Assembly (NCBI GenBank): GCA_944322255.1
Contig: CALUOK010000006.1
Location: 1 to 64,000 of the forward strand
Reading direction: 5' to 3'
Source: Candidatus Methanomethylophilaceae archaeon
Lineage (GTDB): Archaea > Thermoplasmatota > Thermoplasmata > Methanomassiliicoccales > Methanomethylophilaceae
Length of the DNA: 64,000 bases
Positions 164 to 42,286 of the stretch are shown piece after piece; position 1 is the first letter of the stretch, and each line of letters begins with the position of its first letter. The position numbers and the translations under genes were made by a program. The notes below the pieces were generated by a model. The model was not told the DNA's origin. It saw nothing but the letters and a program-made list of their open reading frames with translations, and made no database searches.

Positions 164-445
164 TCAAGGTGTCTGTGCGGCCATCTCGGCGTCGATCTCC
201 GCGAGCCTGCCGGCCACGGACCCTCCAAGGTCCGTCAGGCCGACAATCTCCGAGATGCCGACCACTTCGACGGTGACGAGTCCAGCCGATTTCATGCGGT
301 CGATCTTCGACGGCATGTTGGCGCTGCGTCCGACGGCCCTGTAGATGTCCGTCTTGCGGGCGGGCCCGTTCTCTTTGAGGAACATCAGCATCGGGATCGT
401 GTGCGGGTCGCACAGAACCTGTATCGGATGTCCCCTGTCGGCCAT
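164..445 (-). CDS. Small winged-helix DNA-binding protein, cassette 1
   Basis: A 93-residue protein with the look of a compact winged helix-turn-helix domain. Helix 1 contains the stretch IPMLMFLKENGP, followed by RKTDIYRAVG as the helix before the recognition helix, then a GLVTVE beta-wing and a C-terminal helix. The start is ATG at 445, only 4 nt after the stop of the large surface-protein gene, so the two are co-transcribed. Near-identical paralogs occur at 4382-4663 (same position behind the second surface gene) and, more distant, at 44498-44791. The conserved core is MLMFLxxNGPxRKxDIY. No ligand domain is visible. A role as a cassette-encoded transcription regulator is inferred from the fold and context; the exact family name is not recognised. 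Confidence 0.85.
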   Translation of the reverse strand: MADRGHPIQVLCDPHTIPMLMFLKENGPARKTDIYRAVGRSANMPSKIDRMKSAGLVTVEVVGISEIVGLTDLGGSVAGRLAEIDAEMAAQTP

Positions 446-449
446 GGTA

Positions 450-3400
450 TCAGTCCTTCCTGTACGCGTAGATCAGGAACACTGCGAGGATCGCTGCGAC
501 GGCTGCCGCAGCGGCACAGGCCACGATGGTGACGGTGTCGTCGTCTCCGGAGGAGGACGAGGTTCCGGGCCTGATGATGGGCAGGAGGGGCTCGTCGTCA
601 TCGCCGCCTGCGGGCGGGTTGACAGGGTCGTCATCGCCACCCGGGGTGGGTTCGGGCTCAGGCTCGGAACCCTCCTCCGTCATAGTGACGGATACCGCGG
701 TGTCTTTGCCGGAGACCTCGAAGGTCTTCGTGGCATCGTTGTATCCAGCCAGGGTGAACACAGCCTTGTACGAACCGTCGGCCAGGAGATAGGAACCATC
801 GGCCTCAGGGGTGTACGTGATGCTGCCGTCCTCTGAGGTTACCGAGACCTGGAATCCCTCGACGTTGACGGTGAAGGTCACCTTGTGACCCTTTCCGACG
901 CCGTAGCTGCCATCGGTTTCTGTAAGTGCGAATCCATCGGCCAGGTACTCGGGTTCGACGGCCTTGTTGAAGGTTCCGCCGGAGACATCGATGTCAGTCG
1001 CGGTGCCGCCGAGAGGGTCGACGACCTTGTCTGTGACCTGGAAGTCCCCTCCGGAGATCTTCACGGCCCCTATTCCCTGGCTGCCTGAGCCGCTCATCAT
1101 CTTGACTACCACGGGTCCGGTGAAGTTACCGTCGGTGATGGTGAGGGTTCCCTTGTCCATGGTGTCATCGATCTTCCCGTTGAGGACGACCGCTTCAGCT
1201 CCCTCCCCATCGACGGAGAACGTTCCTCCCGAGATGGTGGCCTCGTTCCAGTTGAGGACCGCGGCCTGGGTCACGTTCGTGAATGTGCCTCCGGCGATGG
1301 TGATCTTCCCATAGTCGTCGTTCTTGATCGTGTTGATTCCGCCGGTGAATGTCCCTCCCTCTATGGTCATGATGGAAGGGGTCTTGGTCGAGTTCTGTGA
1401 TCCGTTGTACCAGCCGTTCTCCACGAGGCTGGAGAAGTGCCCGTCCTGGCTGACGGTCACACCTGCGGATATGGTCATGGTCCCGTGGTTGACTATGTTG
1501 TAGTGTGTGTTGGTCCCACCCTCGCTGGGTGAGGATCCGGTCTCCTTGCTGCGGAGGTACGTTCCGCCCTCGAGGTAGGCTGTGGCGCCGACCTCGTTCA
1601 TGACGGCCGCCTTACCATTGGATACGTTGTCCACCTCCCCCGTCTTGGCATCGGAGCCGTCTATCACGGTCAGGGTCCCGTTGTTGGTGATGGTGTGCTG
1701 GCCATCGGTGTTGGTGAGGGTGAATCCGTTGAGGTCGAGGGTCACATCCAAACCAGACTGGATTGTGATGCTCCCAGTCAGATTTGTGAGCAGTGTGAGC
1801 GTATCACCGTTCGAAAGGTCGTTCAGCGCGTCCGTCAAGGCGGTGTACTGGGTGTCGTTCAGCTTGACCACAGCATCCCCTTCAGCCAGCTCTATGTTTC
1901 CGTCTGTAAGCTGGAATCCGTCGGCCACGTATCCGTCATCCAACGATGAATCGGGCTGTTTGGAATCGACAGTGCCCGTGTAGAAGCTACCTCCGCTGAT
2001 GAAGTTAGAGAGCACAGGGGCTGTACCTTCGTTCTCGGCATCCGAGACGAGGATTGAACCGGCCTTTCCTATGAAAGTGCCGCCCTGGATCGCCATCTCG
2101 CTTCCTGTTATGGTCTGGGTGCCACTGCTCTCGCCAAGGATGTCCTTCTCGTAGAGGCCGTATGATCCGACGAATGTGCCGTCCTTGATCGTGATGTCCA
2201 ACGGCGTCGTTGAGTCATAGGGCACCACAGACAGACCAACGCCCATCACGCCGACCTTGCCCTGTGCATCAGTTGTCGAGAACTGGCCGTTGCCTGTGAG
2301 GACAGTGTCGTTTCCTGTGATGGAGACCGTACCTCTGCGGACCTCCACGCCCGTGGATTCTCCGGTGACTTGGGAGTTATCTATCTCCAGGGTACCAGTG
2401 CTCGGGAAGTAGATTCCGACACTGCCGGATTCCACCACCGACTCTATCAGCGAGATGTCTATCTCCCTGTCGTTTCCGTTGGTCACTATTCCGAAGACGC
2501 CGTTGGTGGATACTGTAACATTATCCAGAATCAGGCCGATGTTCGAATACGAGGATCCGGACATTCCGATTCCAACATCCACTGCGCTCCCGTTAAAGTC
2601 TTTATCAGCTATTATGTCCGCATCATAAGTGGATGTGAGGGAGCCGTTCTTCACTGTCAGTGTACAGTCGTTCACGCTCAGATCCAATGCCTCCTGGTTA
2701 CTGGCATTCACCTTGTGGCCGTTGAGGTCCAGTGTGAACTCGTCGCTGGAGTTGATGCTGAGTGTTCCGTTGAAATCGTGGATCATCACGGCGGTGTGAT
2801 CCTTGGACGCTGCCATGGCATGAGCCATCTGGCCGTATAGGCGCTGGGTTCCGTCCTCCATCTCAGCAACGAAACCGCCGTTGGTCAGGTAGTCGCCTGT
2901 GGTCTCGTTGTATTCGATGTATGTGTTCGAGTCCAGTTCCAGGGCGGTTCCTCCCTGGACAGGGGCAAGGGTGACTCCGTCTAGAACGATCTCGACGGAT
3001 GTAAGGGATATGCTGACGCCAACGGACAATGAAACCGGCCCAGATATGGATGCATCGCTGTCACTCTTTACTGTGACTTTGCCCGAACCGCCATCATAGG
3101 AACCAGGAGAATGGATTTCCAAAGCGATTCCATCATCAGATGTGTTGGTGATGCTGTTGCCGTTCAGGTCCACAATTCCGTTGAGAACCGAGACCACGAT
3201 GGATTGCTCTCCGGAGTAAGGTTTCAACAGGACGAGGGTCTGACCCTCTTCCATGTTCTTACCTGCGATGGCCGGTGAGGCATAGAATGTCTCGGTACCG
3301 TCTTCGGCGACTACCTTAGCGGATGCTGTGTTCTCGTCCAAAACGTATGCTGTCCAATATTCAGACGTTTTCTCGCAACCGTATCCAGATGGTAGATGGT

Positions 3401-4139
3401 CGGTGACATCCTCTCCGAAGTTACCGTTGAGGATGGATCCGTTCGCAAATGTACCTTTAACCTCTTTAATCAGACCACTTTGGAAAACTACAGTCTGGGA
3501 ATCAGACATGCGAAGGAGGTCGATGGTCGGGCCGGTGGTGCCCTCCTTGCCCACAGTGAGCGTTCCACCAGTTTGGCTGATACTGTAATTTCCGGTATTG
3601 ACGATGTGACCACCGTAAACGTTGAGCGCACCGCCGCTCAGATAGACGGCATAGGACGTCCCTCCGGAAAGCACACCACCGGTCATGTTCATAGTGCCCA
3701 GCGAACCGATCTGCAGTGTTATGGATTTGGTATTGTCGATGGAACCGCTTTCAAAATTGAACAGTCCATTGACCTTGATGACGTTAATCACATTGCCTTT
3801 GACGGCACCATTCCCGGCGCTGTCCCTAATTGTGAGTTCGGATGCCGAAGAGATGAGTATCGTTTTATTGACAGACAGTTGTTTACCATTGAGGTCTATT
3901 GCTACGACCTGTCCGTTACTGATGTTGATTGAATCGTCGAGTGTGACATTTTCCGTCAGTTTGACGATAGTCGGTTTGCCAGACTCGATCCCAGATAACA
4001 CTTCTGAGAAATTCGAGTTTCCCGCCTCCACGGTGGTCTCGAAATCGGTAGCCTCCGTCTCGGTTATCGGGACAACACACATAATCAAAGCCACAACAGC
4101 CACAAGGGCAGCCATGGCTACAATCCCGTTTTTGTTCAT
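450..4139 (-). CDS. Secreted beta-helix surface protein, cassette 1
   Basis: A 1229-residue extracellular protein. An N-terminal signal peptide (residues 1-30, ending near TETEA) is followed by about 1000 residues of short Gly/Asn/Thr-rich repeats of the type GGTF, DLNGK and LTVKNGS. This pattern is typical of right-handed parallel beta-helix (pectate-lyase-like) adhesins. Near the C-terminus is a PEGA or carboxypeptidase-regulatory-like beta domain, then a Pro/Asp/Glu-rich linker and a C-terminal membrane anchor (TVTIVACAAAAAVAAILAVF) with a short basic tail. The start was placed at ATG 4139 because GAGGAGG lies just upstream. The upstream in-frame ATG at 4184 has no SD. The first about 37 nt of its 3' end and about 36 nt around its start match the gene at 4669-7773, framing a divergent ectodomain. 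Likely role: adhesion or host interaction (inferred). Confidence 0.88.
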   Translation of the reverse strand: MNKNGIVAMAALVAVVALIMCVVPITETEATDFETTVEAGNSNFSEVLSGIESGKPTIVKLTENVTLDDSINISNGQVVAIDLNGKQLSVNKTILISSASELTIRDSAGNGAVKGNVINVIKVNGLFNFESGSIDNTKSITLQIGSLGTMNMTGGVLSGGTSYAVYLSGGALNVYGGHIVNTGNYSISQTGGTLTVGKEGTTGPTIDLLRMSDSQTVVFQSGLIKEVKGTFANGSILNGNFGEDVTDHLPSGYGCEKTSEYWTAYVLDENTASAKVVAEDGTETFYASPAIAGKNMEEGQTLVLLKPYSGEQSIVVSVLNGIVDLNGNSITNTSDDGIALEIHSPGSYDGGSGKVTVKSDSDASISGPVSLSVGVSISLTSVEIVLDGVTLAPVQGGTALELDSNTYIEYNETTGDYLTNGGFVAEMEDGTQRLYGQMAHAMAASKDHTAVMIHDFNGTLSINSSDEFTLDLNGHKVNASNQEALDLSVNDCTLTVKNGSLTSTYDADIIADKDFNGSAVDVGIGMSGSSYSNIGLILDNVTVSTNGVFGIVTNGNDREIDISLIESVVESGSVGIYFPSTGTLEIDNSQVTGESTGVEVRRGTVSITGNDTVLTGNGQFSTTDAQGKVGVMGVGLSVVPYDSTTPLDITIKDGTFVGSYGLYEKDILGESSGTQTITGSEMAIQGGTFIGKAGSILVSDAENEGTAPVLSNFISGGSFYTGTVDSKQPDSSLDDGYVADGFQLTDGNIELAEGDAVVKLNDTQYTALTDALNDLSNGDTLTLLTNLTGSITIQSGLDVTLDLNGFTLTNTDGQHTITNNGTLTVIDGSDAKTGEVDNVSNGKAAVMNEVGATAYLEGGTYLRSKETGSSPSEGGTNTHYNIVNHGTMTISAGVTVSQDGHFSSLVENGWYNGSQNSTKTPSIMTIEGGTFTGGINTIKNDDYGKITIAGGTFTNVTQAAVLNWNEATISGGTFSVDGEGAEAVVLNGKIDDTMDKGTLTITDGNFTGPVVVKMMSGSGSQGIGAVKISGGDFQVTDKVVDPLGGTATDIDVSGGTFNKAVEPEYLADGFALTETDGSYGVGKGHKVTFTVNVEGFQVSVTSEDGSITYTPEADGSYLLADGSYKAVFTLAGYNDATKTFEVSGKDTAVSVTMTEEGSEPEPEPTPGGDDDPVNPPAGGDDDEPLLPIIRPGTSSSSGDDDTVTIVACAAAAAVAAILAVFLIYAYRKD

Positions 4140-4142
4140 ATT

Positions 4143-4168
4143 GTCCTCCTCAAACGGAGGGACGGAGG
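4143..4168 (-). promoter_or_regulatory. SD-sequestering leader hairpin, cassette 1
   Basis: In the mRNA the SD sequence GGAGG (4145-4149) is preceded by GTTTGA and then CCTCC (4156-4160), giving a perfect 5-bp stem that hides the ribosome-binding site. A second CCTCC copy lies at 4164-4168. CCTCC is also the anti-SD sequence of 16S rRNA. The same layout is found in front of the other two surface genes. Confidence 0.65.
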
Positions 4169-4186
4169 GAGAAACAGAATGCATCG

Positions 4187-4197
4187 CCCCCCCCCCC
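4187..4197 (-). repeat. Homopolymeric G11 tract, cassette 1
   Basis: Eleven consecutive C on the plus strand, that is G11 in the transcribed direction, 47 nt upstream of the start codon. It is preceded by AGCGATAAGCTGC and followed by CGA, a context shared with cassette 2. Tracts of this length are prone to slipped-strand length change, so this is a candidate phase-variation switch. Confidence 0.85.
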
Positions 4198-4231
4198 GCA
4201 GCTTATCGCTATAAGGGTGATGGTGCTCAAT

Positions 4232-4241
4232 GTAGATAATA
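4232..4241 (-). promoter_or_regulatory. Candidate TATA element, cassette 1
   Basis: On the minus strand the sequence reads TATTATCTAC, starting 44 nt before the G11 tract. Cassette 2 has CATTATCTAC at exactly the same distance and the third surface gene has CATTATACTC 50 nt ahead. Conserved sequence continues through TTGAG and CCATC. If this is the TATA box, transcription starts upstream of the G tract and the tract lies in the leader. An alternative weak TATA (CTTATAG) closer to the tract cannot be excluded. Confidence 0.45.
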
Positions 4242-4329
4242 CAGCACACAATAAGTAACTATGAGCATGCTCAAAAACCAGTCCGAACCCTCGTCATAGC
4301 TGGGAAATGTCCATGTAGAATCCGCGGAT

Positions 4330-4368
4330 CCCATGGCAGGGCGCCCATGGGAGATCCCCCTGCCAGGG
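4330..4368 (-). terminator. Double hairpin after second winged-helix gene
   Basis: Two inverted repeats lie directly downstream of the gene ending at 4382: CCCATGG with CCATGGG (4330-4336 and 4345-4351), then CCCC-TGCCA-GGGG. They separate cassette 2 from the promoter region of cassette 1. No long U-run is visible. Confidence 0.35.
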
Positions 4369-4381
4369 GTAAGATGTTTGG

Positions 4382-4663
4382 TCAAGGTGTCTGTGCGGCC
4401 ATCTCGGCGTCGATCTCCGCGAGTCCGTCGGCCACGGACCTTCCCAGGTCCGTCAGGCCGACGACCTCCGAGATGCTGACCCTGTCTATGGTGACCAGGC
4501 CGGCGTCCCTCATGCGGAGGATCTTCGCGGGCATGTTGGAGTTCCTGCCCACGGCCGCGTATATCTCCGTCTTGGTTCCGGGCCCGTTCTCCCTGAGGAA
4601 CATCAGCATGGGTATGATGTGCGCGTCGCACAGCACCTGTATGGGATGTCCCCTGTCGGTCAC
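4382..4663 (-). CDS. Small winged-helix DNA-binding protein, cassette 2
   Basis: A 93-residue paralog of the protein at 164-445, with the same core (IPMLMFLRENGP, KTEIYAAVGR, GLVTID, AEIDAEMAAQTP). It begins with GTG at 4663, 5 nt after the stop of the upstream surface gene, where cassette 1 has ATG. It is therefore translated from the same transcript as the surface protein. Sequence differences cluster in the putative recognition helix and wing (SNMPAKILRMRDAG versus ANMPSKIDRMKSAG), so the two regulators may have different DNA targets. Function is inferred from fold only. Confidence 0.85.
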   Translation of the reverse strand: MTDRGHPIQVLCDAHIIPMLMFLRENGPGTKTEIYAAVGRNSNMPAKILRMRDAGLVTIDRVSISEVVGLTDLGRSVADGLAEIDAEMAAQTP

Positions 4664-4668
4664 GGGTA

Positions 4669-7600
4669 TCAGTCCTTCCTGTACGCGTAGATCAGGAACA
4701 CTGCCATGATGGCCGCCACGGCGGCTGCTGCGGCGCAGGCCACGATGGTCACGGTGTCGTCGTCGGCGGAATCGGATCCTCCGGGCCTGATGATGGGCGG
4801 GAGGGGCTCGTCGTCATCGCCGCCAGCGGGCGGGTTGTCGGGGGTGGGTTCCGGTTCAGGTTCGGGCTCGGGCTCGGGGGTCGGCTCGGGTGTGGGGCCC
4901 TCGCCTGTGTAGATTCCGATTGCGAAGAGGCTGAAACTCGAAGGTGTGATGGTGTAGGATCCTCCTGTCGCACTTTCAACAGTTGGATAGTCTACGGATC
5001 CGTCATCCTTGAAGTGAACGACGAACAGTTTCTCATCATCATCATAGTTCATGTTGAGCGTGAACGACACCGGGTCGGTCTTGCCGTCCACTCTGTAGAT
5101 GTGCATATATTGCCAGGCATCCACTTCATACTCTGCCAGTATGTTTACAATATCTTGGTCTGGATTGTAGACCTCGGTGACTGCCAATTCCACAGTCTCA
5201 TCGCTGACCTCTATAGCCGGATTACCCTGATCGTCCTTGCTCGAATTGTATACATCCACGGTACGGCTGAAATCGCCGGCTGTGATCGTTATCTGAATCG
5301 GGGTGTCGTCGTTGCTGATGAAGGTGAAGAAACCCGCATCCTCATTGTATGATACGACAGAACTATCGTAGTTATACTGCACTTCGACATCCTTGTTGAG
5401 GGTTATGGGGAGCTTGAAACTGTCGGTCAGCACGGCAACCATCTCTTCTATGGTGAAAGGCGCCACCGCCACGGTGTTGCCGCTGGAGTCCGTCTCCATC
5501 TCCACTCCGGCCTCGATGTCTCCCTCGTCTATGGCGGTGTTGAACGTTCCGCCGCTGATGAATCCGGTCTTATCGGCGACATCTACGGCCTTCTTGTCGT
5601 CACCGGGGTTGGTGGATGTGAAGGTTCCTCCGGAGAGTGAGATCTGGACCTTCTCCAGATCTTCAGCAGCGTTCCCCTCTTCGTTGCTCTCGTAGACGGC
5701 GACGTATCCCTCCACGGTTCCGCCCTGGACATCGACCGCCGTCTCCAGCTTGGTAGTGTGCTGGACGATGGCGATTCCCGCTCCGCTCGTTGTGCTTCCG
5801 TTGGAGTTGGAGTCGGATGTTACCGGGGATCCGGTGGCGATGACGGTTCCGCCCGTCATCACGAGGGATCCGGCACGGATCTCGATTCCGGTGTTCCCGG
5901 TGATGGTTCCTCCGTAGACGTTCAGATCGCCGTTCTGAGGGTGGTAGATCGCCTGGGACATTCCGCTGGTGATGGTTCCGCCGTTGATGGTGAAGACCGT
6001 GTTGCTGTAATCCTCATCTGCGTTGTTGGTTCCGTTTCCTGCTATGGCGAACGCGGTCACATCGATGGATGCGCCATCGTTCACAGTGAGCTCAGTTGAT
6101 TTGGAATCTTCAGCTGAGGTACCGAAGACTGCGACTCCAGCCACGCTCCAGGTATCCTTACTATGTTCTAAGTCCTTACCGGTCTGCATCAGCTCCGTGA
6201 AGGATGCTCCTGAATTAAGTGTCAGAGATGCTCCCGCTTCGACGCGTGCCACAAAATTGTAGCCGTTCAAAGCACCTGGTACATACTGGGAGACGACGGT
6301 GTTCTCGATCACGAGCGACATGGATGTTCCAGTCACCACCAGGGCCTTGTATCCGCTGTCAGTCTTGCCGTCGGCCCTGGTGTCGGTGATGGCACCGCCA
6401 CCGGTGATCTTGGAATCTCCGGATGTGAACTTGATTCCCGATCCCGTGCTGTTGCCGGTAATGGTGAGCGTGTGTCCGTCGAGGTCCAGGGTTATGCCCT
6501 TGTCTATCGTGACGGGGCCAGTGCTGACATCGGCCAGCATGGATATGGTATCGCCTCCCACAGCGGCCTCGATCGCGCTCTCCAGACTGCCATACAGGGT
6601 TTCGCCGATGGAGGCCACCCACGTTCCCACTGAACCCTCCTCTGTGATGGGGAATGCCTCCTCACCCTTGGTGATCGACTTCAGGCTGGTGCAGCCGTCG
6701 AATGCTCCGGCGGGTATGCTGCAGCTCTCATCGACGGTCACGGATGTCAGAGACTCGTTATTGTAGAACGGTCTGTTTTCCATCTCCTTGAGATTTGGCA
6801 TCTCGACGGTTTTCAAGCTTTTGCATGCCGAGAATGCGTTCACTCCCAACGAGGTCACGTTGGGCATAGAGATGGACTCGATGGGTACATTGTTGAATGC
6901 GGACTGTCCTACCGTTGTCACACCCTCGCATCCGGTAACAGAGAAGAGGCTGGTGCATGATGCGAAGGCGAAGCTGGGGATCTCGGTCACGCTTTCGGGT
7001 ATGTCGATGGCAGTCAGCGACTTGCAGTTTTTGAAAGCGGATCCGCCGATTGTCTTCAACCCTTCGTTGAGTACTACAGACTCCACACTCGAGTATTCGA
7101 AGGCGTTATCTCCGATTGACTCTACATCCTCGCCGAAGGTCACTGTCTTTGCTCCAGAACTCCTGAAAGCCAGGTCACCGATGGCGACGACCCCGTCGGG
7201 TATGGTCACTTCGGCTCCGTCGGAGAAGGTGTAGGCCATGACGGTGTTGGTGCCGTCGATGACGAGTCCATTCTGGACCTTACACTGCTCGTTTCCTATG
7301 GTTATGGATGTTAGAGTGGGGCAGTTAGCGAACGTGCTGTATTTGAAGCTGGATCCCTCCTCGAGGGTCACGGACCCCAGCGATTTACATCCAGTGAATG
7401 TGCCTGTGTTGTTTTCCAAGATGTTCGCAGTCACGGTTGTGAGCGAGGTGCATCCAGAGAATGAGGCTCCGCCCATCTCTACCGATGCGGCTTGGATGGT
7501 CAGCGATTCTATGGTCGTGTCGTTACGGAAAGCCGTGTTTCCGATGGAATCGATGGTGTATGTGGCGTCACCGTTCTGTACGGTTGCGGGAATCACGAGT

Positions 7601-7773
7601 TCGGCAATGCTGTCTCCGGAGAATCCTGAGACCTCCGCGGTCTTATCAGTGTCGTCGAGAGAATACGAGATTCCATTGACGTCCACGTCCGCGTCGCTGT
7701 CCTCGGACATCGCGACGCATGCGAGCATCACGGCGACGGCCATAACCGCCGCCAGTGCGATCTGTTTGTTCAT
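4669..7773 (-). CDS. Secreted BspA-like LRR plus beta-helix surface protein, cassette 2
   Basis: A 1034-residue extracellular protein. A signal peptide (residues 1-28, ending near SEDSDA) is followed by about 320 residues of BspA/Treponema-type leucine-rich repeats, seen as recurring ITIP/VTIPDG, AFxxCxSL and IGxxAF units. A beta-helix-like region with GGTIT and GGTF turns comes next, then a beta-rich domain, a PEP-repeat linker of alternating Pro and Glu, and the C-terminal anchor TVTIVACAAAAAVAAIMAVF with a basic tail. The start is ATG 7773 behind GAGGAGG. BspA-like LRRs are common in gut bacteria and protists and mediate adhesion, so lateral origin of this ectodomain is plausible. The anchor and leader are shared with cassette 1. 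Confidence 0.88.
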   Translation of the reverse strand: MNKQIALAAVMAVAVMLACVAMSEDSDADVDVNGISYSLDDTDKTAEVSGFSGDSIAELVIPATVQNGDATYTIDSIGNTAFRNDTTIESLTIQAASVEMGGASFSGCTSLTTVTANILENNTGTFTGCKSLGSVTLEEGSSFKYSTFANCPTLTSITIGNEQCKVQNGLVIDGTNTVMAYTFSDGAEVTIPDGVVAIGDLAFRSSGAKTVTFGEDVESIGDNAFEYSSVESVVLNEGLKTIGGSAFKNCKSLTAIDIPESVTEIPSFAFASCTSLFSVTGCEGVTTVGQSAFNNVPIESISMPNVTSLGVNAFSACKSLKTVEMPNLKEMENRPFYNNESLTSVTVDESCSIPAGAFDGCTSLKSITKGEEAFPITEEGSVGTWVASIGETLYGSLESAIEAAVGGDTISMLADVSTGPVTIDKGITLDLDGHTLTITGNSTGSGIKFTSGDSKITGGGAITDTRADGKTDSGYKALVVTGTSMSLVIENTVVSQYVPGALNGYNFVARVEAGASLTLNSGASFTELMQTGKDLEHSKDTWSVAGVAVFGTSAEDSKSTELTVNDGASIDVTAFAIAGNGTNNADEDYSNTVFTINGGTITSGMSQAIYHPQNGDLNVYGGTITGNTGIEIRAGSLVMTGGTVIATGSPVTSDSNSNGSTTSGAGIAIVQHTTKLETAVDVQGGTVEGYVAVYESNEEGNAAEDLEKVQISLSGGTFTSTNPGDDKKAVDVADKTGFISGGTFNTAIDEGDIEAGVEMETDSSGNTVAVAPFTIEEMVAVLTDSFKLPITLNKDVEVQYNYDSSVVSYNEDAGFFTFISNDDTPIQITITAGDFSRTVDVYNSSKDDQGNPAIEVSDETVELAVTEVYNPDQDIVNILAEYEVDAWQYMHIYRVDGKTDPVSFTLNMNYDDDEKLFVVHFKDDGSVDYPTVESATGGSYTITPSSFSLFAIGIYTGEGPTPEPTPEPEPEPEPEPTPDNPPAGGDDDEPLPPIIRPGGSDSADDDTVTIVACAAAAAVAAIMAVFLIYAYRKD

Positions 7774-7776
7774 ATT

Positions 7777-7799
7777 GTCCTCCTCAAACGGAGGGACGG
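7777..7799 (-). promoter_or_regulatory. SD-sequestering leader hairpin, cassette 2
   Basis: The leader is identical to cassette 1 over about 36 nt around the start. SD GGAGG (7779-7783) pairs with CCTCC (7790-7794) across a GTTTGA loop. A second CCCTCC unit lies immediately upstream. Confidence 0.65.
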
Positions 7800-7820
7800 A
7801 GGGAGACACGGATCGTTTCG

Positions 7821-7831
7821 CCCCCCCCCCC
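7821..7831 (-). repeat. Homopolymeric G11 tract, cassette 2
   Basis: Eleven C on the plus strand (G11 in the transcript direction), 47 nt upstream of the start codon, as in cassette 1. Flanks are AGCGATATGCTGC and CGA, nearly the same as cassette 1. Candidate slippage tract. Confidence 0.85.
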
Positions 7832-8149
7832 GCAGCATATCGCTAGATTACGGATGGCACTCAAAGTAGATAATGAAGCATATTGTGAGAAGCTATGAGT
7901 AGGTTCAAAGGCGTCCGTATCCAGGACCATCAGTGACAACTTCGGCGACATACATTGTTACCACGAGAGGGGTGGATCCATCCATACAAATGACATACAC
8001 AAATCTCGACCGTATCTTCTGTTCTCTTCAGAGACGCACCATCACGCAACATTCATCAACATCTGGAGGGATGGAGCATCCACTCTGACATCAAACCCAA
8101 TCGACGCTTAATAGACATCCTTATCGATCAGTCCGATGACCTTTGCAGG
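7832..8149. other. Divergent intergenic region between cassette 2 and RT-like gene
   Basis: This stretch contains, on the minus strand, the conserved cassette promoter region: CATTATCTAC at 7866-7875, then TTTGAG and GCCATC, with CTCATAG further upstream. The remaining about 230 nt show no ORF with codon bias, no tRNA and no strong repeat. A weak CTTAATAG near 8107 may serve the plus-strand gene. Confidence 0.5.
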
Positions 8150-9085
8150 ATGATGACCATGAACGAACCTGAAAAGCCCGTAGAATCCCGTTCGGGGACC
8201 ATCATGGAGGACCCAGCCGAGGACTGGCGCTCCATTGACTGGCAGTACGCCGAGAAGCAGGTGCGCAGGCTCCAGGCGAAGATCTCCAAGGCGGTGTCCG
8301 GGGGCAGGACCAACGACGCCATGAGGTTCTCCCATCTCCTGACGGTGAGCTTCCTGTCCAAGGCTCTGGCCGTGAGGCGGGTGTGCGACGACCCGATGTC
8401 TGGTACTCCGGGTGTGGACAAGGTGCTGTGGTCCACCGACGCCGACAGGATGATGGCCGCACGCGACCTGGACCTGAAGGGGTTCAGGCCGAGGCAGCTC
8501 AGGCACTTCAGGGTCCGGGACACCGGGGATGGAAGGCACTACGTGGAGCTGCCGGTCATGCGCGACCGCGCCATCATGGAGCTCCTCGCGATGGCGTTCG
8601 AGCCCGTTCATGACGTCCTTGTCGGCGGAATCCGTTCCTCGTCCGCGGATGCGGTGTCTCTCCTGCGGACCGACATCGCCGGGAAGGACGGTGCGGGATG
8701 GGTGCTGACCGCCGACATCGCAGTGGCCGATGCCGACGCCCTGAAGGTTTGGATGTCCGGCAACGTCCTGATGGACAGGAGGGTTGTCAGGAGGATCGTC
8801 GAAGCCCGGTTCCTCTTCCGCGAAGAGCCAGTCTACGGCGACCGTCTGTCTACTATGGTCGAGGACGTCGTCCTCAGAGGACTTGAGGACGTTGCAGATC
8901 TCCGTCCTGTCCGTTGTGGTAACCATGTGGCTGTCGTCGTCTGTTCGAGCGAGGATGCCGAGAGGGCGGCGGAGATGCTGGTGTCGTTCCTGAAGGAGCG
9001 GGGTCTGGGGCTGGGGGAAGTGAAGGTGGCCTGCGTCGGGGATAGGTTCGACTTCCTTGGATTCCATATCGAGTCATCGTCGTGA
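8150..9085 (+). CDS. Group II intron RT-derived protein with lost catalytic motif
   Basis: About 311 residues. Residues 25-94 match the N-terminal domain of LtrA-type group II intron reverse transcriptases (DWRSIDWQYAEKQVRRLQ, LAVRRV, TPGVDKVLW). The finger/palm landmarks follow in order: LPVMRDRAIMELLAMAFEP, the SSSADAV remnant of SYGFRPxRSTxDAI, motif A as WVLTADIAVADADAL, and a C-terminal GDRFDFLGFHI. The RYADD box is replaced by RCGNHVAVV and the PQGG segment is missing, so polymerase activity is very unlikely. There is no maturase X domain, no HNH endonuclease and no recognisable domain V RNA downstream. ATGs at 8150, 8153 and 8159 are all possible starts. It appears to be a domesticated or decaying RT. 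Its full-length, biased coding sequence between two G11 promoters suggests retention for a non-catalytic job (inference). Confidence 0.75.
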   Translation: MMTMNEPEKPVESRSGTIMEDPAEDWRSIDWQYAEKQVRRLQAKISKAVSGGRTNDAMRFSHLLTVSFLSKALAVRRVCDDPMSGTPGVDKVLWSTDADRMMAARDLDLKGFRPRQLRHFRVRDTGDGRHYVELPVMRDRAIMELLAMAFEPVHDVLVGGIRSSSADAVSLLRTDIAGKDGAGWVLTADIAVADADALKVWMSGNVLMDRRVVRRIVEARFLFREEPVYGDRLSTMVEDVVLRGLEDVADLRPVRCGNHVAVVVCSSEDAERAAEMLVSFLKERGLGLGEVKVACVGDRFDFLGFHIESSS

Positions 9086-9117
9086 GTCCGCTTTCACCAT
9101 TCGGTCTTACGAACATT

Positions 9118-9127
9118 CATTATACTC
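9118..9127 (+). promoter_or_regulatory. Candidate TATA element of third surface gene
   Basis: CATTATACTC, preceded by TT as in cassette 2 (TTCATTAT), 50 nt before the G11 tract. This supports a common promoter architecture. A second AT-rich element (GTGTAAAGC) abuts the tract itself and could be the box instead. Confidence 0.4.
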
Positions 9128-9167
9128 AGTTCCCCATTCATCGTTCATACACTAAGAAGTGTAAAGC

Positions 9168-9178
9168 GGGGGGGGGGG
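9168..9178 (+). repeat. Homopolymeric G11 tract of third surface gene
   Basis: Eleven G on the plus strand, 47 nt upstream of ATG 9226, the same length and distance as in both minus-strand cassettes although the flanking sequence differs (GTGTAAAGC before, ATTCG after). Convergent retention of G11 in an otherwise diverged leader argues for function. Confidence 0.85.
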
Positions 9179-9198
9179 ATTCGCCCTTCTGGATCGTT

Positions 9199-9222
9199 CC
9201 TCCCCGTCCTCCGCATGGAGGA
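9199..9222 (+). promoter_or_regulatory. SD-sequestering leader hairpin of third surface gene
   Basis: TCCTCC (9207-9212), loop GCAT, GGAGGA (9217-9222) form a perfect 6-bp stem that contains the whole SD. ATG follows 3 nt later at 9226. Another CCTCC copy is at 9199-9203. The sequence is unlike the cassette 1/2 leader, but the layout (tandem CCTCC plus an occluding hairpin) is the same. Confidence 0.65.
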
Positions 9223-9225
9223 AAG

Positions 9226-11037
9226 ATGAATGCCAAAGCGATGATCGTGCTGATCGCCGCTGTCGTTTCCATCTCAGGCTGCATTTCGATGATGTCGGAT
9301 GATTCGGATGCAGCTGCAGGGGATGTCTCGATGGGGGGCAGCACGTATGATTCAATAACCTCGGCTCTCAACGATGCGGGAACGTCCGCGACGATCACAC
9401 TGAACAACGACATCACCGAGAAGGTGGAGATCTCGACGGGCAAGGACGTGACAATCGATCTCAACAACCATACGCTCACCAATTCTAGTGGCAACACGAT
9501 CGTTGTCGAGAACGGTGCGACACTGAGTTTGACTGGCTCTGGGACCCTGTCCAACTCTAATGATTCAAGCAGTAGCTGCATCAACGTCAATGCAGGCGGG
9601 ACCTTGAACATCTCCGAAGACGCGGACATCACACTGAGCACACAGATTGTGAACAAGGGAACTGTGAGTATCCACGGGGAGGTCACCTTGAACAAATCCA
9701 TAAGAACAGATGCTGACGCGAACCTGCATGTGTATGGCAAGGTGGTATCTGAAGGAGGCAATATCGGCAATAACGGCGGAACCGTCCATCTGGATGCCTA
9801 CAGTGACACGTTGGCAGCAACCTTCTCTGGAACGACCACGCCAATTCCCGATGAGAACAACGAGAACATCCGTTACGTGAACATCGACACTCAGGTCGAT
9901 GACGAACTCGATGACAAAGCGCTTCACACTGCTTTGTTCAGGGGGACCAACGTGTACACTCCTGGTCTGACTGTAATCATCACTCTCGAGGGGAGCACCG
10001 ACCCGGACAATCCTAGCGTGTACGGTCTGACAACATCCAGTCCGGATCGCATCCGTGCCACAAACATGGTCATCCAGCCGGCGGACGGCACATATGTGAC
10101 CATAGACCTTTCTGGCTGCTCTCAGAATGGGAACGCTGTGAGCATTACAGGAAATGGTGACATCTCCAGCCTCACAATTAGAGGCATTGCATTCACCGCT
10201 GGAACCGCCAGCCAGGTGAAGTTCAACTTCGGTGTTTACCCGAACTTCACCTTCGAGAACTGTTCGTTTGAGAACATCAACCTGGCTCAGTCGTCCGGAA
10301 CAAGTGGCACCACCGTGATCAGAGGGTGTGAGTTCGTCTGCACCGGAACCCAGATCGGTGCCTATGCGGTGGTGATCAACACCGGTACCGCCGTGGTCGA
10401 GGGCAACACTATCGACAACTACCTCTCGGGAGTCAACATAAACACCAGCGAATCCAGCGGTGAAAGCATCACTGTCTCCGCCAACGCCATCTCCAACCTC
10501 GGTGCTGATGGGGACAGAGGGGAGGCGATCCAGATCGCGGGACCATTGGCCGGGAAGTCTGTGGTTGTCTCGGACAACAGGATAAGCAACGCCAACGTCG
10601 CACTGCAGATCTATCACAACTGTGGGGATTCTGTCCAGTCCTTCGATGTGAAGGACAACTCCATAACCGACACGCCTGTGGGAATCAACTACGAGGCCGA
10701 TGAATCGGACCCACCATCTGGTGTCCAGGTGGTAGCTAATAGCAACTACTTCTCGCCCGATGGGGGTGAAGGGGTCGAGATTATCGTCACATCGGATGGT
10801 GGAACAGACGTTTCGAATCGGGTGACATGTGACACGTTCTACACCGATCCCTCAATGGATTCCACCAACGAGGACGCAGTGCCGCCGACCAGTTGGGACG
10901 ATGAAGAGGATCTGCCTCCGTTCATCCCGTCGCAGACCGGTGGTGACGACGACACCGTCACCATCGTGGCCTGCGCAGCCGCAGCGGCCGTTGCCGCCAT
11001 CATGGCGGTGTTCTTGATCATCGACAGGAAGCAGTGA
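9226..11037 (+). CDS. Secreted beta-helix surface protein (third)
   Basis: A 603-residue extracellular protein. The signal region (residues 1-29) contains ISGC, which could be a lipobox, followed by DDSDA. Residues 35-560 are short beta-helix repeats (TITLNNDI, TIDLNNHTLT, NCSFENI, VVEGNTIDNY) resembling parallel beta-helix or polymorphic outer-membrane-type adhesins. The C-terminus carries the same anchor as cassettes 1 and 2 (TVTIVACAAAAAVAAIMAVF) but ends in DRKQ rather than YRKD, and the Pro-rich linker is short. The start was set at ATG 9226 because of GGAGGA upstream. An in-frame extension to 9082 would cross the G11 tract and lacks an SD. Unlike the minus-strand genes it is not followed by a winged-helix gene. 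Confidence 0.87.
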   Translation: MNAKAMIVLIAAVVSISGCISMMSDDSDAAAGDVSMGGSTYDSITSALNDAGTSATITLNNDITEKVEISTGKDVTIDLNNHTLTNSSGNTIVVENGATLSLTGSGTLSNSNDSSSSCINVNAGGTLNISEDADITLSTQIVNKGTVSIHGEVTLNKSIRTDADANLHVYGKVVSEGGNIGNNGGTVHLDAYSDTLAATFSGTTTPIPDENNENIRYVNIDTQVDDELDDKALHTALFRGTNVYTPGLTVIITLEGSTDPDNPSVYGLTTSSPDRIRATNMVIQPADGTYVTIDLSGCSQNGNAVSITGNGDISSLTIRGIAFTAGTASQVKFNFGVYPNFTFENCSFENINLAQSSGTSGTTVIRGCEFVCTGTQIGAYAVVINTGTAVVEGNTIDNYLSGVNINTSESSGESITVSANAISNLGADGDRGEAIQIAGPLAGKSVVVSDNRISNANVALQIYHNCGDSVQSFDVKDNSITDTPVGINYEADESDPPSGVQVVANSNYFSPDGGEGVEIIVTSDGGTDVSNRVTCDTFYTDPSMDSTNEDAVPPTSWDDEEDLPPFIPSQTGGDDDTVTIVACAAAAAVAAIMAVFLIIDRKQ

Positions 11038-41954: not shown

Positions 41955-42265
41955 AGAAGTGCCCGGCCACAGGGGTTGACCTCACATCCCGATCCAAGTT
42001 GACCATTTCGCTTCTCGACCCTGCGACCCCGTAAACGTCAGTAGTTCGAGGTAAGGCTGCTCCCGTCAGGACCTGACCCGGTTTCCCCGATTGATGTGTG
42101 AACAGCGGCCCTCCGGTCGCTTTCGTCACAAACACCGACTCTACAGGACAAAGTTTCATAGTCGCTAGATGGGCTTGGATGTTCAGCGGGGCCGTCCCCT
42201 GCTGTCGCCCCCGCGTATTGACGATTTCGGGTGTAGGGCACGCCAAGCGCCCCGGCCAAGCCAGA
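41955..42265 (-). ncRNA. 7S SRP RNA
   Basis: On the minus strand the helix 8 signature GGGTCAGGTCC-TGAC-GGGAGCAGCC is clear, with a UGAC tetraloop in place of GGAA. The 5' region GGCCGGGGCGCTTGGCG resembles the Alu domain start. Helix 5 is supported by ATCCAAG (near 42174-42180) pairing with CTTGGAT (near 41992-41998) and by GTGCCC (near 42242) pairing with GGGCAC (near 41960). TATA box TTATTATAAAC at 42287-42297 predicts the start near 42265. Ends are approximate. The RNA scaffolds SRP54 and SRP19 for membrane targeting. It is transcribed convergently to the methanogenesis marker gene. Confidence 0.87.
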
Positions 42266-42286
42266 CAGAGGGTTGATTGCCCCTCT

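Follow-up and report, generated by a model that had tools for sequence, protein, structure and literature searches.

Leader poly-G tracts as candidate phase-variation loci of surface-protein genes in an archaeon of the family Methanomethylophilaceae

In bacteria, phase variation driven by sequence repeats is textbook knowledge. In the poly-G/C phasomes of Campylobacter, Helicobacter and Neisseria, many tracts of about 8-13 nucleotides (nt) are associated with surface-protein and methyltransferase genes, coding tracts are found out of frame, and tract lengths differ between loci. Here we describe what are very probably, judging from sequence, slippage-based phase-variation contingency loci in an archaeon. 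They came to light in a 64-kb stretch of DNA (the window; positions 1 to 64,000 of contig CALUOK010000006.1, Candidatus Methanomethylophilaceae archaeon, assembly GCA_944322255.1), in which three surface-protein genes are each preceded by a run of 11 G. The archaeal loci share all of the above properties with the bacterial phasomes, and differ from them in their domain of life, in that most surface-gene tracts reside not in a coding frame but in a leader with a hairpin that hides the Shine-Dalgarno (SD) sequence, and in that neither MutS- nor NucS-type repair was detected.

Several described systems resemble single aspects of these loci. In the Helicobacter pylori tlpB leader, which combines a G-repeat with the C/U-rich small RNA (sRNA) RepG, expression is repressed at 7-12 G and activated at 14 or more (PMC8295292). 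The archaeal leaders likewise bring together a variable G-repeat in what is probably the 5' untranslated region (UTR), a C/U-rich partner and a predicted threshold close to that of tlpB; however, the partner there is a separate sRNA, whereas here it lies in the same leader beside the SD-hiding hairpin, and the archaeal design is repeated over many paralogous genes. As in the phasevarion methyltransferases, a simple repeat occurs within the gene, out of frame in 2 of 3 cases here, although the present candidates are archaeal and are not claimed to be type III mod genes. The surface proteins themselves recall the adhesin-like proteins of gut methanogens, which are also large, secreted and anchored repeat proteins with many paralogs, but for which repeat-based switching was not found in the literature searched. 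More generally, a search of incomplete coverage, aimed at archaea, this order and gut methanogens, turned up no report of repeat-based phase variation, and prior work may exist. One survey considered mainly poly-A/T tracts in 18 archaeal genomes (PMC2831843), and a 2025 review mentions archaea only as a group to be surveyed for repeats in future (PMC11868660). The system appears to be of a known kind in a new domain of life, with a leader design that is apparently new.

Each window tract ends 47 nt before an ATG preceded by a GGAGG SD sequence. The first-pass annotation of the window had reported three G11 tracts at exactly this distance from SD-supported starts, and the positions were confirmed (Table 1); its observation that no other homopolymer of this length occurs also holds, the three tracts being the only homopolymers of at least 7 nt in the 64 kb. 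All three genes encode a signal-peptide-like hydrophobic N-terminus and a common C-terminal anchor (TVTIVACAAAAAVAA..), in line with the earlier description of secreted, anchored beta-helix or leucine-rich repeat (LRR) proteins. The LRR part of that description stands for gene 2 (BspA-type, PF13306, 6.6e-54), whereas genes 1 and 3 match no Pfam family above the cut-off, leaving 'beta-helix' a plausible label for their sequences. The window is archaeal, with an archaeal signal recognition particle RNA at 41960-42267.

The window tracts belong to a genome-wide class. Across the genome of this archaeon (1.88 Mb, 31 contigs) we identified 18 G tracts of at least 9 nt, 15 of them outside the window. 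Long tracts are a separate class and not the tail of the ordinary runs: in the 1.59 Mb covered by run-length counts, G/C runs of length 6, 7 and 8 number 313, 7 and 0, and runs of 9, 10, 11, 12 and 13 number 2, 3, 9, 3 and 1, with a second mode at 11. Since runs of 7-8 are nearly absent and counts then rise at 9-13, the long tracts exceed what chance would give. Gene context could be assigned for 16 of the 18 tracts, with 12 at surface genes (8 intact leaders, 1 intron-split leader, 1 C13 leader and 2 within the coding sequence, at the signal peptide), 3 within genes for DNA methyltransferases (Pfam N6_N4_Mtase and C5 DNA_methylase), and 1 upstream of an ATP-binding cassette (ABC) transporter gene. 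Fifteen surface genes with the common tail are present in the genome, and 12 of these have a tract. The positions occupied (5' leader, promoter and 5' coding sequence) would allow tract length to alter expression, and at the assembled lengths 4 of the 5 coding tracts are out of frame (OFF) and 1 is in frame (ON). Among the methyltransferase tracts, C1:156708 (G12) and C2:87592 (G10) are out of frame and C2:84602 (G11) is in frame; the C1 methyltransferase had no ortholog among 40 relatives, precluding a tract comparison.

Two of the surface-gene loci have unusual arrangements. At one (L073:3952-6120; C4:123952 to about 126120 in this genome, G000), a group II intron in antisense orientation interrupts the G tract, so that G12 remains towards the promoter and G6 towards the leader, and probably separates the surface gene from its promoter. 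At the other (L032; G000 C1:118635), the sense strand carries a C13 run 16 nt before the ATG, which could itself pair with the SD sequence.

To characterize the leaders, we collected 28 of them from six genomes, namely that of this archaeon and those of its relatives G014, G015, G020, G027 and G070, the last from another genus of the family. Compared in this way, as the first-pass annotation had envisaged, tract lengths differ between genomes, with leaders of 9 (2), 10 (5), 11 (17), 12 (2), 13 (1) and 14 (1) G, and with G11, G10 and G11 in the ABC-transporter tract of three species. Two leaders of G020 are identical for 41 nt after the tract, yet one has G11 and the other G12. Searches for MutS (PF00488) and NucS/EndoMS (PF01939), in which the controls were positive, found neither in any of 31 genomes from the genus, an absence that fits unstable tracts; we infer the slippage rate itself from such sequence patterns. 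The ABC-transporter tract (G10-11, with C on the sense strand) lies immediately upstream of a TATATA-like box of the gene in all three species, and is likely, from its placement, to be a transcriptional contingency locus. In a different family of the order, an acyltransferase-like gene (G040, L170) has two G11 tracts (C1:305130 and 305762), both of which interrupt the frame as assembled when read by eye, much as tracts interrupt the frames of bacterial genes that modify surface sugars. A run of 23 G occurs at L203 (G027 C1:73716), far beyond the usual 9-14.

The leaders share a consistent anatomy. The tract lies 35-52 nt from the ATG, mostly 43-47 nt (43-47 nt in all eight intact leaders of the archaeon's own genome), and all 28 leaders have the Gs on the sense strand. 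Upstream there is an AT peak, in which 8-nt windows that begin 45-49 nt ahead of the tract have a mean AT of 0.75 where the median is 0.55, a level reached by 0 of 1000 circular-shift controls. In archaeal promoter geometry, such a TATA-like peak would put the start of transcription some 15-20 nt ahead of the tract. Because the peak lies 40-47 nt upstream, the tract is probably transcribed and would form part of the 5' UTR. On its downstream side the tract is followed first by a pyrimidine-rich stretch and then, after a short linker, by a CCUCC-loop-GGAGG hairpin with the SD sequence in it. This hairpin was present in all 28 leaders when pairs were counted leader by leader (MAFFT misaligns the hairpin, as its loop varies in length), and its arms show compensating changes, to CCCTC/GAGGG in G014 and G027 and to CCTCCA/TGGAGG in G015. 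In the archaeon's own genome, all nine genuine CCTCC-GGAGG-ATG leaders precede surface genes of the tract-led family (8 with G10-G12 and 1 split by the intron), and the hairpin is absent from surface genes without a G leader. Predicted SD accessibility has a median of 0.02 in the leaders versus 0.43 in 278 other genes (p = 2e-14, an optimistic value as the leaders are related). The alternative that leader tracts are coding, read through from an upstream start, was rejected: at the observed tract lengths an in-frame upstream start exists in only 11 of the 28, and it is from the ATG behind the SD sequence that the signal peptide starts.

The first-pass annotation had left open whether the tracts act through promoter spacing or through the leader RNA. 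The TATA-like peak and the SD-sequestering hairpin favor the leader RNA, given that the tract would lie inside the transcript and that the hairpin occurs in this genome only with G-tract leaders. The predicted fold consists of two adjacent hairpins, the first formed by the G tract and the pyrimidine tract, its C/U-rich partner present in cis in the same leader, and the second by the anti-SD and SD strands. When tract length was varied in silico, the SD remained closed up to 11 G and opened progressively from 12-13 G, with mean SD-free probabilities over 22 leaders of 0.03, 0.13, 0.30, 0.45 and 0.59 at G11, G12, G13, G14 and G16. Shuffling the middle segment flattened the response (0.14, 0.20, 0.21 and 0.26 at G11, G13, G14 and G16). 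The model predicts that the extra Gs would drive the SD strand off CCUCC, and from it we infer that expression would follow leader tract length.

Related leaders were found in only some relatives. The leader pattern recurs in the archaeon's own genome and in G014, G015, G020 and G070, with 0 matches to a reversed-pattern control in these genomes, and in G027 the leader is the same except that its hairpin arms are variants. A stricter pattern, applied to 390 genomes of the phylum, matched only the archaeon's own genome, G014, G070 and G132, and the two G132 matches look like chance. Fixed non-G leaders in front of orthologs, which the earlier annotation regarded as evidence against switching, were mostly not what we saw: among 21 tail genes inspected across G014, G015, G020 and G027, a tract precedes 18. 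No tract accompanies the tail genes of G001, G004 and G023, which are more distant, and on this sequence evidence the leader system is patchy across relatives.

Most surface genes are also paired with a putative regulator. Within about 30 nt after 11 of the 15 surface genes, including window genes 1 and 2, lies a paralogous gene of about 93 amino acids (aa). Its structure, predicted with confidence from eight paralogs (predicted local distance difference test, pLDDT, of 90) and poorly from a single sequence (pLDDT 44), matches winged-helix regulators, including PH1061, AF1382 and the ArsR and MarR folds. Switching of the surface gene would probably also switch this gene. A related winged-helix regulator elsewhere (L166; G018 C4:70918) has a G13 tract at its own 5' end.

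Combining these results, we chart a model in which replication slippage would alter the length of G runs of 9-13, with no mismatch repair of the MutS or NucS type to check it, and would thereby switch surface proteins, DNA methyltransferases and the ABC transporter in single cells. In the leaders, the G run would pair with the pyrimidine tract 10-20 nt downstream (hairpin 1), beside the SD-hiding hairpin 2. With 11 G or fewer, hairpin 2 would stay closed and the gene low or OFF; from about 13 G upward, the Gs would reach the CCUCC arm, hairpin 2 would open and translation would be ON. The winged-helix regulator 3' of the surface gene would, in most cassettes, be switched together with it. Candidate phase variation, as first proposed, is supported, not proven, by the tract class, the target genes, the out-of-frame coding tracts, the variable lengths, the occurrence in other species and the lack of MutS and NucS. 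For the whole statement, which joins contingency loci, a 5' leader RNA switch and a co-switched regulator, the balance of evidence is only slightly favorable.

Several observations weigh against this model. Almost all leaders are predicted OFF at their observed lengths, single leaders do not strongly beat composition-preserving shuffles, and the folding treats poly-G pairing with C/U crudely and ignores G-quadruplexes. The putative transcription start is placed by the AT peak only, the regulator function of the winged-helix gene is suggested by its modeled fold and has no known target, and tract lengths are those of assemblies, not reads, and an assembly can be off by one base in runs of this kind.

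We consider unlikely a reading that accepts phase variation but has the leader tract working at the level of DNA or transcription, by promoter spacing, start-site choice or polymerase slippage. The fixed distance of the tract from both the TATA-like box and the ATG would suit such a mechanism, and the ABC-transporter tract at C11:955, which abuts its TATATA-like box, suggests that transcriptional tracts may exist in the same genome; the AT peak of the leaders is nevertheless too far upstream, at 40-47 nt, for an effect on TATA-to-start spacing, and spacing needs neither the uniform sense-strand orientation of the Gs nor a pyrimidine partner nor an SD hairpin. A fixed structural RNA element of selected length and no switching, for example a stabilizing 5' hairpin, a binding site for a regulatory protein or for an sRNA acting in trans, or a standby site for the ribosome, seems rather improbable. 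The 17 of 28 leaders with exactly 11 G could indeed mean such an element, and folding already predicts hairpin 1 with 6 G, as it does with 11 G, but lengths range over 9-14, otherwise identical leaders differ by one G, out-of-frame tracts lie inside surface and methyltransferase genes of the same genome, and mismatch repair of the MutS and NucS types is missing. Assembly or sequencing artefacts or chance runs are a very improbable source of the tracts, for although errors are common in homopolymers and several of the tracts sit close to the end of a contig (C1, C11 and C24), the 9-13 runs form their own mode, their positions are non-random and the leader design recurs in independent genomes, including the single-contig G014.

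The window also contains, between the two divergent tracts, an open reading frame (8150-9085, plus strand) resembling a reverse transcriptase (RT), with an RVT_N domain and a weak match to group II RT/maturases. It has no clear YADD box and shares 38% identity with the RT of the C4 intron, and a search with Rfam found no group II intron RNA in the window. We considered this reading frame as a diversity-generating element but dropped the idea, given its likeness to a degenerate group II RT and the lack of an intron RNA in the window.

Table 1. Features of the tract-led surface genes in the window, and the ABC-transporter tract loci
Feature	Position	Strand	Basis
G11 tract, leader of surface gene 1	4187..4197	-	
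TATA-like box ATTATCTA, 43 nt upstream of gene 1 tract	4233..4240	-	AT peak over 28 leaders
Pyrimidine tract TTTCTCCCTCC, predicted G-tract partner, hairpin 1, gene 1	4164..4174	-	fold
SD-sequestering hairpin 2, CCTCC-GTTTGA-GGAGG, gene 1	4145..4160	-	
Surface gene 1, 1229 aa, signal-peptide-like N-terminus, C-terminal anchor tail	450..4139	-	
Putative winged-helix regulator, 93 aa, directly downstream of surface gene 1	164..445	-	
G11 tract, leader of surface gene 2	7821..7831	-	
TATA-like box ATTATCTA, 43 nt upstream of gene 2 tract	7867..7874	-	
Pyrimidine tract TCTCCCTCC, predicted G-tract partner, gene 2	7798..7806	-	fold
SD-sequestering hairpin, CCTCC-GTTTGA-GGAGG, gene 2	7779..7794	-	
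Surface gene 2, 1034 aa, BspA-type LRR (PF13306), anchor tail	4669..7773	-	
Putative winged-helix regulator, 93 aa, GTG start, directly downstream of surface gene 2	4382..4663	-	
G11 tract, leader of surface gene 3	9168..9178	+	
TATA-like box ATTATACT, 49 nt upstream of gene 3 tract	9119..9126	+	
Pyrimidine tract TTCCTCCCC, predicted G-tract partner, gene 3	9197..9205	+	fold
SD-sequestering hairpin, CCTCC-GCAT-GGAGG, gene 3	9208..9221	+	
Surface gene 3, 603 aa, signal-peptide-like N-terminus, anchor tail; no winged-helix gene after	9226..11037	+	
ABC-transporter tract loci	L038:955-1718 (G000 C11); G014 C1:1566476; G027 C7:302943		

If the model is correct, an archaeal phasome would mean that bet-hedging of the cell surface evolved in archaea too, and did so without MutS- or NucS-type repair. 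The leader design yields a precise prediction, a threshold near 12-13 G. A question that the paired regulators bring up is whether the surface genes engage in cross-talk or exclude one another. The widest picture we can draw, held tentatively and somewhat short of an even chance, is of a complete phasome, in an archaeal lineage lacking MutS and NucS, where each cassette carries a cis-acting RNA gauge of tract length, methyltransferases are phase-variable, and a co-switched winged-helix factor resets other loci, so that slippage at one locus could reset the expression of others.

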